Assembly (NCBI GenBank): GCA_937916485.1
Contig: CALFSV010000422.1
Span: forward strand, 1 to 33,018
Source: an uncultured Paracoccaceae bacterium
Lineage (GTDB): Bacteria; Pseudomonadota; Alphaproteobacteria; Rhodobacterales; Rhodobacteraceae
DNA length: 33,018 bases
Direction of reading: 5' to 3'
Position 1 is the stretch's first letter. Every line of letters begins with the position of its first letter. A program made the translations under genes and the position numbers. The notes under the pieces are model-generated. The model saw only the letters and a program-made list of their open reading frames with translations, was not told the DNA's origin and searched no databases. This document shows, piece after piece, positions 20,189 through 27,312 of the stretch.

Positions 20189-21730
20189 ATGAAACAGATC
20201 AGCAGACGCGGATTGCTCCGCACGGGCATGGCCGCCGGGGTCCTCGCCGCGACCGGTGTCCCGACACTGGCACAAAGCCGTGGCGGCACGCTGCGCCTTG
20301 GCCTTGCCGGTGCGAACACATCGGACAGCTGGGATGGCCGGACACACTCGGACACCTACATGATCGTCTGTGCTATGGGTGCAGTGTTTGATTGCCTGAC
20401 CGAGATTGCCGCCAATGGCGAACTGGTTGGCGAACTGGCCGAAAGCTGGGAAGCCACGCCTGATGCCAAAACCTGGATCTTCAACCTGCGCCAGGGCGTG
20501 ACCTTCCACAACGGCGCAGCCTTCACCGCCGATGACGTTATCGCATCGCTCAACCTGCACGTTGCCGAAGGGTCGCAGTCCGCTGCTGCGCCAATCGTTG
20601 CCGCCATCACCGAGATGACGAAGCTTGGCGACTACCAGGTCCAGTTTGTCCTTGAGGCCGGCAATGCCGACTTCCCCTTCCTGCTGTCGGATTATCACCT
20701 GCTGATGTACCCGCACGCCAGCATCGAAGAGGCGATTGCCAACGGCATCGGTACGGGCCTTTACCGCAACGTCAGCTTTGATCCGGGCGTCCGCACCGTG
20801 CTTCAGCGCGTCGACGGTCACTACAAGGACGGTCAGGCCGGTTGGTTCGACTCGATCGAAGTCATCGCCATCAACGACGGCTCTGCCCGTATGACGGCAC
20901 TGATGACGGGCCAGGTCGATGTGGTGAACAACGTGGTCTTCCAGACCGAGCCATTGATGCGCGCCAACCCCGCCATCGAGGTGATGGATGTTACCGGCAA
21001 CCAGCACTACTCGTTCCCGATGCTGACCAACCTGTCGCCACTGGACAACGTCAACGTCCGTCAGGCGCTGAAGTATGCCGTTGATCGGCAGGAACTGGTG
21101 GACAAGGTCCTTCAGGGCCACGGCGCCGTCGCCAACGACCATCCCATCGGTCCGGCCAACCAGTACTACTTTGCCGAGCTTGAGCAGAACTCCTACGACC
21201 CCGACCGCGCCAAGGCGATGTTGCAGGCCGCTGGCCTTGACGGTCTGAACATCGACCTGTCGGTGTCTGATGCTGCCTTTGCCGGTGCTGTCGATGCAGG
21301 TCTGCTGTATCAGGCCAAGGCTGCTGACTGCGGGATCAACATCAACGTCGTTCAGGAAGCCGCCGATGGCTACTGGTCCAACGTCTGGCTGAAGAAGCCG
21401 TGGTGCGCCTCCTACTGGTCCGGTCGCGTCACCGAAGACTGGATGTTTACCCTTGGCTATCAGACAGGCGCCGCCTGGAACGATACCAACTGGGAAAACG
21501 AGCGGTTCCAATCCTTGCTTCTGGAAGCCCGGGCCGAGCTTGATAGCGCCAAGCGTCGCGAGATGTACTACGAGATGCAGATGCTTTGCTCGCAAGAGGG
21601 CGGCGTGGTCATCCCGATGTACGCCAACTTCGTCACGGCGAATTCGACCAAGCTGTCGCACCCCGAAACGGTTGGCAACGTCTACGACCTGGACAGCAGC
21701 CGCATCGCAGAGCGGTGGTGGATGGCCTGA
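20189..21730 (+). CDS. Substrate-binding protein of the peptide ABC importer, Tat-exported
   Basis: This 513-residue periplasmic binding protein belongs to the SBP_bac_5 (DppA/OppA/NikA) family. Hallmarks are GELAESWEATPDAKTWIFNL, LRQGVTFHNG and the VRQALKYAVDRQELVDKVLQG block. The N-terminus MKQISRRGLLRTG followed by a hydrophobic stretch and TLAQS is a twin-arginine signal, so it is exported folded; there is no lipobox Cys. A GGGAGA Shine-Dalgarno sequence precedes the ATG. It is the last gene of the importer operon, before an intrinsic terminator. Binding proteins of this family take di- or oligopeptides, nickel or other small solutes; the ligand cannot be read from sequence. Confidence 0.93.
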   Translation: MKQISRRGLLRTGMAAGVLAATGVPTLAQSRGGTLRLGLAGANTSDSWDGRTHSDTYMIVCAMGAVFDCLTEIAANGELVGELAESWEATPDAKTWIFNLRQGVTFHNGAAFTADDVIASLNLHVAEGSQSAAAPIVAAITEMTKLGDYQVQFVLEAGNADFPFLLSDYHLLMYPHASIEEAIANGIGTGLYRNVSFDPGVRTVLQRVDGHYKDGQAGWFDSIEVIAINDGSARMTALMTGQVDVVNNVVFQTEPLMRANPAIEVMDVTGNQHYSFPMLTNLSPLDNVNVRQALKYAVDRQELVDKVLQGHGAVANDHPIGPANQYYFAELEQNSYDPDRAKAMLQAAGLDGLNIDLSVSDAAFAGAVDAGLLYQAKAADCGININVVQEAADGYWSNVWLKKPWCASYWSGRVTEDWMFTLGYQTGAAWNDTNWENERFQSLLLEARAELDSAKRREMYYEMQMLCSQEGGVVIPMYANFVTANSTKLSHPETVGNVYDLDSSRIAERWWMA

Positions 21731-21753
21731 TCCATCCAGAAACGAACAGAAGG

Positions 21754-21779
21754 GGCCCCGTCATCGGCGGGGCCTTTTT
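21754..21779 (+). terminator. Intrinsic terminator of the importer operon
   Basis: GGCCCCG (21754-21760) pairs with CGGGGCC (21768-21774), followed by five T. It lies 24 nt after the stop codon of the binding-protein gene and separates the importer from the rimP operon. Confidence 0.88.
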
Positions 21780-21821
21780 CATGTCTGCAGGGCTGTTCCG
21801 ACAGGGTCCTTCAGACGGCCC

Positions 21822-21850
21822 TTGCAGACTCGATCCCTTATGCGTATATC
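21822..21850 (+). promoter_or_regulatory. Probable promoter of the rimP-nusA-infB operon
   Basis: TTGCAG (21822-21827) and TATATC (21845-21850) are separated by exactly 17 nt, each with four of six consensus bases. Transcription would start near 21857, giving a leader of about 87 nt before rimP. It lies just after the importer terminator, where a promoter is needed. An upstream inverted repeat (21785-21793 with 21818-21827) overlaps the -35 box. Confidence 0.5.
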
Positions 21851-21856
21851 CCCGTC

Positions 21857-21943
21857 AACAGCGGCGCCTTGGCCTCCACCCCCAAGGCACCACCGGGAAA
21901 TATCAACGGGCCGCGCGCCCGTTTTTTTGTGCTTATGGAAACC
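21857..21943 (+). promoter_or_regulatory. Structured leader of the rimP operon with built-in terminator
   Basis: The predicted leader holds a first hairpin, GCCTTGG (21866-21872) with CCAAGGC (21882-21888), and then an intrinsic terminator (21905-21928) directly before the rimP start region. CCCGT just before or at the predicted 5' end (21851-21855) and GCGGC/GGCGC (21861-21867) could pair with parts of the terminator stem, which would give alternative folds. This is the layout of a transcription attenuator. NusA, encoded second in the operon, is a natural candidate for feedback; autoregulation of the nusA operon is known in E. coli. Confidence 0.5.
21905..21928 (+). terminator. Intrinsic terminator inside the rimP leader (attenuator)
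   Basis: AACGGGC (21905-21911) pairs perfectly with GCCCGTT (21917-21923) around the loop CGCGC. The T-run is seven long (21922-21928). It ends 15 nt before the rimP ATG, so most transcripts must read through it for the operon to be expressed. Confidence 0.8.
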
Positions 21944-22561
21944 ATGACAAACGACCTGATCGCCAAGGCGGCCATTGATCGCCGCATCGCCGAAATCGTC
22001 CAGCCCGTGATCGAGGATCTTGGGTTCGAACTTGTGCGCGTTCGTCTGATGACCGGCAAAGAAAGCACGCTCCAGATCATGGCTCAAAAGCCTGACGGTT
22101 CGATCGAAGTGGACGAATGCGCCACGATCTCGACCGCTGTCAGCGCGGTTCTGGATGTCGAAGATCCGATCCTTGACGCCTATACCCTCGAAGTTTCAAG
22201 CCCCGGCATCGACAGGCCACTGACCCGCCTGAAGGACTTTGACCTTTGGGAAGGCAATGTGGCCAAGATCGAAACCACAGAGCTGATCGACGGACGCCGC
22301 CGCTTTAAGGGCGTGCTGGCGGGGATCGAAGGCGACGAAGTGCTGATTGAGATCGAAGAAGGGGCCGAAGCCGTCACCATCGGCCTCAAGTTTGATTGGC
22401 TTAGCGATGCAAAGCTTGTCCTGACAGACGACCTCATCCGCGAGGTTCTGCGGGGCCGCAAGGACAAGGGCCAGATCGACGAGGCCCAATTCGATGAAGT
22501 TCAGACCATCATTGATGGTGAGGAAGATGATAGCGCGCCGCGCAAAGGGGAGATCCACTGA
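21944..22561 (+). CDS. rimP: Ribosome maturation factor RimP
   Basis: RimP binds the 30S subunit and helps its late assembly. The 205-residue sequence has the N-terminal domain with [18 protein letters not shown], the [16 protein letters not shown] segment and [13 protein letters not shown], then the C-terminal SH3-like domain ([19 protein letters not shown]). The tail after about 170 is acidic and low in complexity. ATG at 21944 is chosen: GGAA lies about 5 nt upstream, and the conserved part begins soon after. An ATG at 21935 is possible; farther upstream the open frame overlaps the leader terminator. It overlaps nusA as TGATG. Confidence 0.92.
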
Positions 22562-24171
22562 TGGCCATTACATCCGCCAACCAGCTTGAGCTGCTGCAGA
22601 CCGCCGAGGCAGTTGCTCGCGAAAAGATGATTGATCCCGGTCTGGTGGTCGAAGCGATGGAAGAAAGCCTCGCCCGCGCCGCCAAGTCCCGGTACGGGGC
22701 CGAAATGGACATCCGCGTCCATATCGACCGCAAGACCGGCAAGGCGACCTTCACCCGCGTCCGCACTGTGGTCGAGGACGAACTGCTTGAGAATTATCAG
22801 GCTGAGTTCACGGTTGCGCAGGCCAAAGAGTATATGGAAGACCCCAAGGTCGGTGACACCTTTGTCGAAGAGGTCCCGCCCGTCGAGCTTGGCCGTATTG
22901 CTGCCCAGTCCGCCAAGCAGGTGATCCTACAAAAGGTTCGCGAAGCCGAGCGTGATCGCCAGTACGAAGAATTCAAGGATCGTGCCGGCACGATCATCAA
23001 CGCCACCGTCAAGCGTGAAGAATACGGCAACGTCATCGTCGATGTCGGCGCTGGCGAAGCGATCCTGCGTCGCAACGAAAAGATCGGCCGCGAAGCTTAC
23101 CGTCCCGGCGACCGCATCCGGTGCTTCATCAAGGATGTGCGCCGCGAACAGCGCGGCCCGCAGATCTTCCTGTCCCGTACCGCGCCCGAATTCATGGCAG
23201 CCCTGTTCAAGATGGAAGTGCCCGAAATCTACGACGGCATTATCGAGATCAAGGCCGTTGCCCGCGACCCCGGTTCGCGCGCCAAGATCGCTGTCATCAG
23301 CTATGACAACTCGATCGACCCAGTCGGTGCCTGCGTCGGTATGCGCGGCAGCCGGGTTCAGGCCGTTGTGAACGAGCTTCAGGGCGAAAAGATCGACATC
23401 ATTCCGTGGAACGAGGATATCCCGACCTTCCTCGTCAACGCCCTTCAGCCTGCCGAAGTCACCAAGGTGGTTCTGGACGAAGAGGCCGAGCGGATCGAAG
23501 TCGTCGTGCCCGAAGAACAGCTGAGCCTTGCCATCGGCCGTCGCGGTCAGAACGTGCGTCTGGCCAGCCAGCTTACTGGCCTCGACATCGACATCATGAC
23601 CGAGGAAGAAGAAAGCAAGCGCCGCCAGGCCGAGTTTGAAGAGCGGACCAAGCTGTTCATGGATACGCTCGACGTTGACGAATTCTTTGCCCAGCTTCTG
23701 GTCGCCGAAGGCTTTACCAACCTTGAAGAGGTCGCCTACGTCGATCTTGACGAACTCTTGGTCATCGACGGCGTCGACGATAGCACAGCCGCCGAACTTC
23801 AGGCCCGTGCCCGCGACCATCTTGAGGCGATGAACAAGAAGGCGATGGATCACGCCCGCGAGTTGGGCGTCGAGGACAGCCTTGTCGCCTTCCCCGGCCT
23901 GACGCCCCAGATGATCGAGGCGCTGGCCGAGGACGGGGTAAAGACCTTGGAGGACTTTGCCACCTGTGCTGACTGGGAACTGGCCGGCGGCTGGACCACC
24001 GTCGATGGTGTTCGTACCAAGGACGAAGGTGTCCTGGAAAAATTCGACATGAGCCTGGAAGAGGCTCAGGACCTGGTCATGACCGCCCGCGTTATGCTGG
24101 GCTGGGTCGATCCGGCTGAACTGGAGCAGGCCGCCGACGAAGGCGACGTAGAAGAGGAGGCGGAGGCCTGA
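22561..24171 (+). CDS. nusA: Transcription elongation/termination factor NusA
   Basis: NusA binds RNA polymerase and nascent RNA to control pausing, termination and antitermination. The 536 residues hold an N-terminal RNA polymerase-binding domain (1-125), an S1 domain (about 135-200), and two KH domains with [10 protein letters not shown] near 260 and [10 protein letters not shown] near 326. A C-terminal region with two helix-hairpin-helix repeats follows ([19 protein letters not shown] and [19 protein letters not shown]), with a very acidic tail. The start overlaps the rimP stop by one base. The gene ends in a hairpin at the junction with the ylxR-like gene. Confidence 0.97.
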
Positions 24172-24193: not shown

Positions 24194-24820
24194 ATGACCC
24201 GTGGCGGAAAACATGACGACACCGATGTGGCCGAGCGCCGCTGCATCGTCACGGGCGAGGTTCAGCCAAAGGCCGGGCTAGTCCGCTTTGTCCTTGGGCC
24301 TGACAATCAGGTTGTTCCCGACATATTGGGAAAGCTGCCGGGCCGGGGTATGTGGGTGACATCGACCCGCGAGGTGATCGAAAAGGCAGGCAAGGGGCAA
24401 TTTTCTCGCTCTGCCAAGGCGCCCGTCATCGTGCCAGAAGGCTTGACGGACGAGGTTGAGCGTCAGTTGGCCCGCCGGGTCGTTGACCTTATTGCACTGG
24501 CCCGCAAGGCCGGTCTTGCGGTATGTGGGTTCGAGAAGGTAAAAGCGTGGCTCTCCAATGATCAGGTCCGGGTGCTCTTGCAGGCCAGTGACGGGTCAGA
24601 ACGGGGCAAGACGAAACTCTGGACACCAACCGGTGCCCGTTACTACGGCTGTTTGACATCCCAGGAATTGGGTTTGGCATTCGGTCGGCAAAGTGTGATA
24701 CATGGCGCGCTCGCATCTGGTGGACTCAGCAACCGTGTTGTAGAGGAAGCCGCGAAGCTTCGCGGATTACGCGAGATTGACGGTGGGAAGACGCCCGCCG
24801 GGAAGGATACAGAAGTTTGA
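24194..24820 (+). CDS. YlxR (DUF448) domain fused to an L7Ae-like RNA-binding domain
   Basis: The first 80 residues are a YlxR/DUF448 domain: [21 protein letters not shown] and then LPGRGMWV. YlxR (RnpM) binds RNA and, in some Firmicutes, modulates RNase P. From about residue 90 follows an L7Ae/YlxQ-like part ([26 protein letters not shown]). In Bacillus these are two genes, ylxR and ylxQ, between nusA and infB; here they are one protein of 208 residues. The tail is basic. The stop overlaps infB as TGATG. The role is RNA binding tied to translation or RNA processing; the target is unknown. Confidence 0.85.
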
Positions 24821-27312
24821 TGAGCGATACCGACGGCAAAAAACCCCTTGGCCTGCGTGGCGCCCCGTCCCGACCCGGGAACGTGAAGCAAAGCTTCAGC
24901 CATGGCCGGACCAAGAACGTCGTGGTTGAGACCAAGCGCAAGCGCGTTGTGGTGCCAAAGCCAGGCGCCCTGACCACCGGTGGCACCGGCCCCGCGGTCA
25001 AGGGTGACCCGTCCAAGAGGCCCGCAGGCATCTCGGATGTCGAGCTGGAGCGGCGGATGAAGGCCCTCGCGCTGTCCCGCGCCCGTGAGGCCGAAGAAGC
25101 ACTTCAACGCGAGGCCGAAGAACGCGAGCGCGCCGAAGAGCGTAGTCGTCGCCGCGCCGAGATCGAGGCCAAAGAGGCCGAGGAGCGGGAACGCGAAGAG
25201 GCTTTGAAGGCAAAGGCTGAAGAAGAAGAGCGCACGAAGGCCAAACTAGAAGAAGCCGCCCGCAAGGCCGCCGCGGATGCTGCTGCGCCTGCCGTGCAGG
25301 ATGATCCGACATCCAGCCAGCGCGCAACGTCAGCACCCCGCAAGCCGGATCGCGAGCGCGATCTGCGCAGCGAAAAGACTGTGGCCAAGCCCAAGACAGA
25401 CCGCGAGGCAGATGGCCGCCGTGGTGGCAAACTGACATTGAACGACGCATTGGCCGGCGGTGAAGGTGGACGTCAGCGGTCCATGGCCGCGATGAAGCGC
25501 AAGCAAGAGCGTGCCCGCCAAAAGGCGATGGGCGGAGCTCAGGAACGCGAGAAGGTCGTCCGCGACGTTCAGCTGCCCGAGGCGATCATGGTCAGCGAGT
25601 TGGCCAACCGCATGGCAGAACGCGTTGCGGACGTCGTCAAGGCGCTGATGAAGAATGGCATCATGGCCACTCAGAACCAGACCATCGACGCCGATACCGC
25701 CGAATTGATCATCGACGAGTTTGGCCACAAGGTTGTCCGCGTTTCGGATGCAGACGTGGAGCAGGTTATTGCCCAGGTCGAAGACAAGTCCGCCGATCTC
25801 AAGCCGCGTCCCCCGATCATCACGGTCATGGGCCACGTTGACCACGGCAAGACGTCATTGCTTGATGCAATCCGCAAGACCAAGGTCGTGAATGGTGAAG
25901 CCGGCGGGATCACCCAGCACATCGGTGCCTATCAGGTCGAGGTCGGTGGTTCGCTGTTGACCTTCCTTGATACCCCAGGCCACGCGGCGTTCACGTCGAT
26001 GCGGGCCCGCGGGGCCCAGGTCACCGACATCGTCGTGCTGGTTGTTGCCGCTGATGACGCTGTCATGCCGCAGACCATCGAGGCGATCAATCACGCCAAG
26101 GCCGCCAAGGTTCCGATGATCGTCGCGATCAACAAGATCGACAAGTATGAGGCCAACCCCGACAAAGTCCGGACCGATCTTCTGCAACACGAAGTCATTG
26201 TGGAAAAGATGTCGGGTGACGTGCTGGACGTCGAGGTGTCGGCTACGACCGGCCAGGGCCTTGATAACCTGCTTGAAAATATCGCTCTTCAGGCCGAGCT
26301 TCTTGACCTGAAGGCCAACCCCGATCGCCCTGCCATGGGCGCGGTGATCGAGGCGCAGCTTGATATCGGTCGCGGTCCTGTGGCCACAGTTCTTGTGCAG
26401 AACGGCACTTTGCGCCAGGGCGACATTTTTGTTGTTGGCGAAAAGTGGGGCAAGGTTCGCGCGCTTATCGATGACAAGGGCGATCGTGTACCTTCGGCTG
26501 GTCCCTCGGTCCCGGTCGAGGTGCTGGGTCTGAATGGCACGCCCGAAGCCGGCGACGTCCTTAACGTGGTTGCCACCGAAGCGCAGGCCCGTGAAATCGC
26601 CGAGTACCGCGAGAAAGCCGCCAAAGAAAAGCGGGCCGCCGTCGGTGCCGCTACAACGCTTGAGCAGCTTATGGCAAAGGCCAAGGACGATCAGAACGTG
26701 TCCGAACTGCCAATCCTGGTGAAAGCCGATGTGCAGGGCTCTGCCGAGGCGATCGTTCAGGCGATGGAAAAGATCGGCAACGAAGAGGTCCGCGTTCGTG
26801 TCCTGCACTCGGGTGTTGGTGCCATCACAGAAAGTGACATCGGCCTTGCCGAAGCGTCTGGTGCACCTGTGTTCGGATTTAACGTCCGTGCCAACGCCAG
26901 CGCCCGCCAGTCTGCCAACCAAAAGGGTGTCGAGATCCGCTACTACAGCGTGATCTACGATTTGGTCGATGATGTGAAAGCGGCAGCCTCTGGTCTTCTG
27001 TCGGCAGAGATCCGCGAAAAGTTCATCGGCTACGCCAGCATCAAGGAAGTCTTCAAGGTTTCCGGTGTTGGCCGCGTTGCAGGTTGCCTCGTCACCGAAG
27101 GCGTTGCACGCCGTTCGGCTGGCGTCCGGTTGCTGCGTGACGATGTCGTGATCCACGAAGGCACGCTCAAGACGCTCAAGCGCTTTAAGGATGAAGTGGC
27201 TGAGGTTCAGTCGGGTCAGGAATGCGGCATGGCCTTTGAGGCCTACGAAGACATTCGCCCCGGTGATGTCATCGAGATCTTTGAAAGAGAGACGGTCGAA
27301 CGGTCCCTCTAG
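24820..27312 (+). CDS. infB: Translation initiation factor IF-2
   Basis: IF-2 is the GTPase that brings initiator tRNA to the 30S subunit and promotes 50S joining. The 830-residue protein has a long charged N-terminal region rich in Glu, Arg and Lys (about 65-160, likely helical), an IF2_N-type segment near 250-305 ([21 protein letters not shown]), then the G domain with G1 GHVDHGKTS near 337, G2 [10 protein letters not shown]3 DTPGHAAF near 384, G4 NKID near 437 and G5 SATTGQG. Domains II, III and IV follow to the end. ATG at 24820 overlaps the previous stop; the TTG at 24817 is less likely. A strong hairpin follows. Confidence 0.97.

Follow-up and report, generated by a model that had tools for sequence, protein, structure and literature searches.

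A conserved rimP leader with an intrinsic terminator and a candidate antiterminator in Rhodobacteraceae

The rimP-nusA-infB locus

The window, i.e., the whole stretch of 33,018 nucleotides analyzed here (contig CALFSV010000422.1 of an uncultured Paracoccaceae bacterium), carries four consecutive genes on the + strand: rimP (21944..22561, with an in-frame alternative ATG at 21935), nusA (22561..24171), a gene for a YlxR/RnpM-like RNA-binding protein between nusA and infB (24194..24820), and infB encoding IF-2 (24817..27312, with the start codon set by the ORF tool). NCBIfam models exceeded their cut-offs for RimP, NusA, and IF-2. As products of the operon, NusA, IF-2, and RimP serve as core factors in transcription, the start of translation, and the assembly of ribosomes.

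Upstream, the region 20189-21779 holds a gene for a peptide/nickel-type ABC-transporter substrate-binding protein, followed by a terminator-like hairpin of its own. This hairpin, seen in the sequence at 21754..21779 on the + strand at the 3' side of the transporter gene, has the form GGCCCCG..CGGGGCC followed by T5 and a folding energy of -17.6 kcal/mol, and was reported by the terminator scan on the - strand only. It probably insulates rimP from upstream transcription. A relative of the substrate-binding protein was found somewhere within the retrieved stretch in 46 of 110 compared loci.

Promoter and transcription start

The region between this hairpin and rimP contains a -35 element TTGCAG (21822..21827, + strand) and a -10 element TATATC (21845..21850, + strand) separated by a 17-nt spacer. 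TTG at this spacing recurs in the compared leaders: a spacer of exactly 17 with TTG occurred in 108 out of 108 scored leaders, the window included, and in 97 out of 98 leaders of a second set that has a few genomes in common with the first. The -10 hexamer was TATATG or TATATC in 100 of the 108 leaders. A consensus promoter scan of 11 kb did not list the TTGCAG/TATATC promoter. The conserved leader starts 12-13 nt past the first T of the -10 hexamer in 104 out of 108 cases, and the predicted transcription start of the window is the A of AACAGCGG at 21857 (+ strand), 12 nt from that T. The 5' end of the transcript is very likely AACAGCGGC, as judged from the sequence, and the assignment of a conserved sigma-70-type promoter to rimP is supported by the comparison.

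In a check for a leader peptide, neither ATG nor GTG was present in the window from 21857 to the terminator. Translation from a TTG at 21869 would cross the terminator and continue in frame into rimP (21869-21943).

Terminator

A candidate intrinsic terminator with the GGGC..GCCC motif of the rimP-leader lies at 21905..21928 on the + strand. Its stem AACGGGC/GCCCGTT occupies 21905-21911 and 21917-21923 around the loop CGCGC, and its U-tract consists of seven T at 21922-21928, ending 15 nt before the ATG at 21944 and 6 nt before the in-frame ATG at 21935. It is the only terminator-like site from the transcription start to the ATG. The first-pass annotation had described a promoter-like pair with 17-nt spacing, one hairpin, and then a 7-bp stem with seven T ending 15 nt before the rimP ATG, and all of these parts were recovered at their places.

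Taken by itself, the window sequence provides weak evidence for the promoter, the hairpin, and the terminator, which is not beyond chance. The scan of 11 kb found 13 terminator-like sites where 10.3 were expected, and the segment 21840-21932, which comprises the leader and some promoter bases, folded only slightly more stably than its shuffles (z of -1.10), 30 out of 200 of which were equally good. The comparison with other genomes was decisive. The AACAGCGG element and a terminator were found upstream of rimP in all 110 loci L001-L110, those most closely related to the window in RimP or NusA; RimP was recovered in 55 of the 61 genomes searched, and the NusA loci from named genomes are the best 80 of a longer list. 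A first pattern search had missed the terminator in three of 111 rows (L021, L025, and L079), where the stems or U-tracts are variant. The exact terminator 20-mer GGGCCGCGCGCCCGTTTTTT occurred in 7 out of 41 genomes, with one copy each and always at rimP. Conservation in alignment A1 extends to the U-tract plus the G and T behind it, while U-tract and start codon are separated by anything from 9 to 94 nt (108 of 111 rows with a terminator found by script, and with a start codon chosen by script).

Range of the leader

The whole conserved leader element spans 21857..21935 on the + strand and is the sole match of the covariance model R1 in the window, with 96.2 bits. With E up to 0.1 as the limit, R1 matched 373 out of 394 family genomes and, among those of good quality, 338 out of 347. 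Thirteen of the 373 R1-positive genomes had two or three matches and the others one. Among the fetched loci, 98 of the 99 parsed R1 hits were followed by rimP, while the remaining hit (L238) is a weak second match within one genome. A search of 240 genomes of the class, with filters that lose weak matches, returned three genomes with an R1 match (E up to 0.01), all of them in the same family.

By eye, a terminator of the GGGC..GCCC or GTGGGC..GCCC type with a T run was seen before rimP in at least six alphaproteobacteria of other families. The loci in question (L119, L120, L123, L124, L125, and L127) carry this terminator in a different sequence, and R1 gave no convincing match in any of them. 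The GGGC..GCCC stem motif is therefore wider in range than the Rhodobacteraceae leader. No common structure was apparent among antiterminator-like folds before rimP in nine genomes of other families and in L130, a divergent member of the family.

Alternative folds of the leader

When the leader is cut before the 3' arm of the terminator, the best predicted fold of the window is a three-way junction of the helices P1, P2, and P3. P2, or hairpin 1, is formed by GCCUUGG/CCAAGGC (21866..21888, + strand) and shows strong covariation. In P1, the 5' strand GCGGC (21861..21865, + strand) pairs with GCCGC at 21910-21914, and in P3 the 5' strand CCG (21893..21895, + strand, within CCACCGG) pairs with CGG at 21907-21909. 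The 3' strands of both helices (21907..21914, + strand) thus overlap the 5' arm and the loop of the terminator. Since the 5' strand and the later CCG can both pair with this arm, the strongly conserved AACAGCGGC and CCACCGG both face it. The CGCGC-loop class, to which the window belongs, has only five P1 pairs. Two further candidate pairings were noted by eye, one between GGNUCC in the loop of hairpin 1 and GGGCC of the arm, the other between GGCGCG and the 3' arm.

P1 with at least four pairs was present in the prefix fold of 106 out of 110 leaders. In two further sets, all three of which overlap, it was found in 112 out of 116 leaders against 1118 out of 2320 with the first bases shuffled, and in 187 out of 197 against 1148 out of 1970. 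The rate of 48-58% with which even shuffled 5' bases pair is due to the high G+C content throughout. P1 was absent from the prefix fold in 10 of the 197 leaders (L010, L021, L025, L074, L199, L206, L214, L226, L227, and L232). P3, which has three pairs and was scored from two pairs on, was less regular and belonged to the best prefix fold in just 81 out of 116 and 129 out of 197 leaders. The share of cells that pair was 96.3% for P1 and 99.4% for P3 in alignment A1, compared to 92.9 and 98.3%, respectively, in alignment A2, itself fitted to the model.

Unguided RNAalifold recovered P2 in both sets, P3 in the first set alone, and P1 in neither, and a subset of 68 leaders yielded no helix. It was insensitive here, because it missed the terminator too.

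A CCA lies between hairpin 1 and P3 (21889-21892 in the window), of which C21890 and A21892 are kept in at least 90% of A1 and are not explained by P1-P3. This CCA may be a site of protein contact or have a role in the terminator state.

Covariation of the leader helices

Alignment of the leader for covariation had been proposed with the first-pass annotation, and the outcome favored the fold for P2 and P1. All five counted pairs of P2 showed two-sided, compensatory changes. The 5' strand of P1 fits its own terminator arm better than the arms of other leaders, with a z of -3.9 and none of 5000 shuffles as good among 117 distinct combinations, and a z of -4.6 among 92 coarser combinations. As a control, the 5' strand showed no such fit to the linker or to the P2 loop (p 0.95 each). 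A test on contiguous runs with 59 combinations was not significant (p 0.395), while the energy version of the test on 59 combinations gave a p of 0.0098.

P1 is nearly invariant, and compensatory changes are therefore few. At the outer pair G21861-C21914, the 172 leaders in register had GC in 162, AU in 4, GU in 4, and a mismatch in 2 cases, with 25 of the 197 leaders being out of the P1 register. The four A-U rows (L051, L112, L193, and L239) fall in four places of the best RimP tree, corresponding to four changes; this tree is poorly resolved and compatible with a single origin of these rows, two of which sit on long branches. Further fitting variants of P1 are UCGCGGC/GCCGCGA in L030, GAGCGGC/GCCGCUC in L117, and, by eye, CAUCG/UGAUG in L216. 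One part of the tree has the arm GCCUGUU or similar, and the 5' GCGG has also decayed in several members there. With this arm, the pairing can slide to AACAG:CUGUU, as seen by eye and in the folds of L011 and L013; in L010 and L214, AACAG:CUGUU was not formed in the prefix fold.

No two-sided change was found for P3 in A1 or A2. The 5' CGG was lost in 15 out of 197 leaders and the CCG retained in 14 of these 15, which suggests that the CCG depends on the arm rather more than on the 5' strand. The leader thus combines mutually exclusive conserved structures with compensatory changes in P1, as in a switch between antiterminator and terminator, with few events and some exceptions.

Proposed mechanism and alternatives

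We interpret the leader as a transcription attenuator of rimP-nusA-ylxR-infB in which a three-way-junction antiterminator is set against the terminator, and assign this interpretation a probability of about 0.7. Attenuation in cis is well supported by the sequence comparison, and a regulated switch is likely. The first-pass annotation had already proposed a transcription attenuator at this place, and the proposal is strongly supported, since the unit is conserved over its full length, from the promoter to the U-tract, and so is the candidate antiterminator, a feature the annotation had not noted. Comparison and folding support the promoter, P2, the terminator, the covariation of P1 with the arm, and the conservation before rimP. 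By inference, cells would contain both states, in a regulated proportion.

Transcription would start at about A21857 from the conserved sigma-70-type promoter, and the first 58 nt would fold into the three-way junction of P1, P2, and P3. The antiterminator could form first because its upstream strands precede the 3' arm in synthesis. With P1 and P3 jointly holding the 5' arm of the terminator, RNA polymerase would read through, while the terminator would form and transcription end with a leader of about 72 nt if the 5' arm were unpaired at the time of synthesis of the 3' arm. The 5' CGG, released in this state, could then pair with the CC or CCG behind hairpin 1 as a possible anti-antiterminator. 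The likeliest regulator would be NusA, which would favor the terminator and provide feedback. NusA is the first candidate because it is encoded in the operon, behind the terminator, and because precedents exist in B. subtilis and E. coli, by analogy with which feedback by NusA is plausible.

The earlier statement that only controlled read-through makes sense of a terminator at this place is too strong, since read-through at a low and constant level would suffice as well; in Rhodobacter sphaeroides, read-through of the UpsM leader was estimated at about 1 in 100 (PMC5089854). A fixed partial terminator would let a constant share of polymerases pass and set the level of the operon, with the 5' pairing merely tuning this share. 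For UpsM, no experimental evidence of a switch is reported (PMC5089854), and in the window the terminator state (-25.6 kcal/mol) is favored over the antiterminator (-23.0 kcal/mol) by about 2.6 kcal/mol. However, the conserved, mutually exclusive, and mutually fitting halves of the leader suggest a switch more than a fixed setting, and we consider a fixed terminator rather unlikely.

Doubtful as well is an attenuator that responds to a signal other than NusA, such as cold by way of an RNA thermosensor or a cold-shock protein, the state of RimP or 30S assembly, or a ligand on the junction with the conserved CCA. The two bases C21890 and A21892, kept in at least 90% of A1 and left over by P1-P3, would fit such a signal, and cold induction of nusA-infB in E. 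coli was ascribed to antitermination by Csp (Bae 2000, as cited in PMC6511841). Antitermination in E. coli is disputed, though, by the citing paper itself (PMC6511841), the hairpin-loop sequences are variable, and the analysis identified no sensor.

A small-RNA gene, of which the terminated product of about 72 nt would be a stable trans-acting sRNA and read-through secondary, is improbable. While UpsM is a precedent (PMC5089854), the loop of hairpin 1 varies in sequence and the strands complementary to the terminator are kept. The Rhodobacter sRNA SorX (RF02784) had a full-length match below threshold, but its 15.4 bits against a cut-off of 46.6 and its E of 0.32 are at chance level, and membership was rejected.

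That the terminator belongs to the upstream ABC-transporter unit as its 3' end, with rimP starting after 21928, is very improbable: the upstream gene lies on the same strand and a relative of its product occurs in 46 out of 110 loci, but it has its own terminator-like hairpin at 21754-21779 with a conserved promoter in between, the sequence between U-tract and start codon is of variable length (9 to 94 nt), and the comparison contradicts this reading.

For the attenuator preferred here, a family-wide switch in which the first nine nucleotides are the antiterminator strand of the three-way junction, and which senses the NusA level or the state of ribosome assembly, is put forward tentatively, at somewhat less than even odds. 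If true, it would be a complete sequence-defined autoregulation circuit for rimP-nusA-infB in Rhodobacteraceae. A single family offers a defined candidate antiterminator with natural variants, and the mechanism is directly testable by point changes and reporters.

Comparison with known systems

The first-pass annotation rightly noted that leader elements before rimP are reported in some other bacteria. The terminator of the window fits the rimP-leader of Naville and Gautheret (2010, PMC2965389), which was headed 'the most ubiquitous transcription attenuator' and for which NusA was considered the probable best candidate as regulator. As in the rimP-leader, an intrinsic terminator lies directly before rimP of rimP-nusA-infB, the GGGc..gCCC stem with a U-stretch is present, here as CGGGC CGCGC GCCCG U7, and the distance from terminator to gene of 15 nt in the window falls within the reported 4-130 nt (PMC2965389). 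For the general rimP-leader, neither a larger conserved element nor a visible antiterminator was reported (PMC2965389), whereas in the leader described here an element at the 5' end, the hairpin with its covariation, and a candidate antiterminator are conserved across one family. The gammaproteobacterial rimP-leader has a second, upstream tandem terminator (CCCg..cGGG) and a potential antiterminator, whereas one terminator was found here (PMC2965389).

Whether the leader belongs to a known family had been raised with the first-pass annotation, and the Rfam search matched no family at gathering score, either in the window or in 20 fetched loci; relaxed thresholds also gave no family. The Rfam family RF01770 (rimP) belongs to the same gene and the same position but does not match this leader. 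It was absent among the matches with E up to 10 in 21700-22000, its gathering cut-off of 47 bits not being reached, and none of 41 genomes exceeded the cut-off or had a weaker match listed at the rimP place in a search with filters that lose weak matches. R1 covers 373 of 394 family genomes, whereas Rfam is without a match in the window and the 20 fetched loci. In a literature search by title and start of abstract, with subscription papers mostly outside its coverage, a rimP leader of Rhodobacteraceae was not the subject of any paper. The rimP-leader terminator is thus of a known kind, while the conserved family-wide leader and its candidate antiterminator, as modeled here, appear undescribed.

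In B. subtilis, NusA is autoregulated by attenuation, as it stimulates an intrinsic terminator located within the 5' leader of nusA (PMC12288461). Compared to this attenuation, the hairpin and seven U of the window look strong, and a role of NusA here would be by analogy. In E. coli, two terminators are reported before rimP and transcripts of the operon rise in mutants with reduced NusA termination (PMC6511841), while expression of a rimP fusion was lower in a Rho mutant (PMC7815308).

Within the Rhodobacteraceae, a parallel in layout is the UpsM/mraZ leader of R. sphaeroides, which likewise combines a structured leader and an intrinsic terminator with read-through into a conserved gene cluster (PMC5089854). 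Refolding of a terminator arm was suggested for UpsM as well, although the consensus structure given in the same paper did not confirm this alternative fold (PMC5089854). The UpsM leader differs from the one described here in its length of 268 nt and its position before mraZ (PMC5089854).
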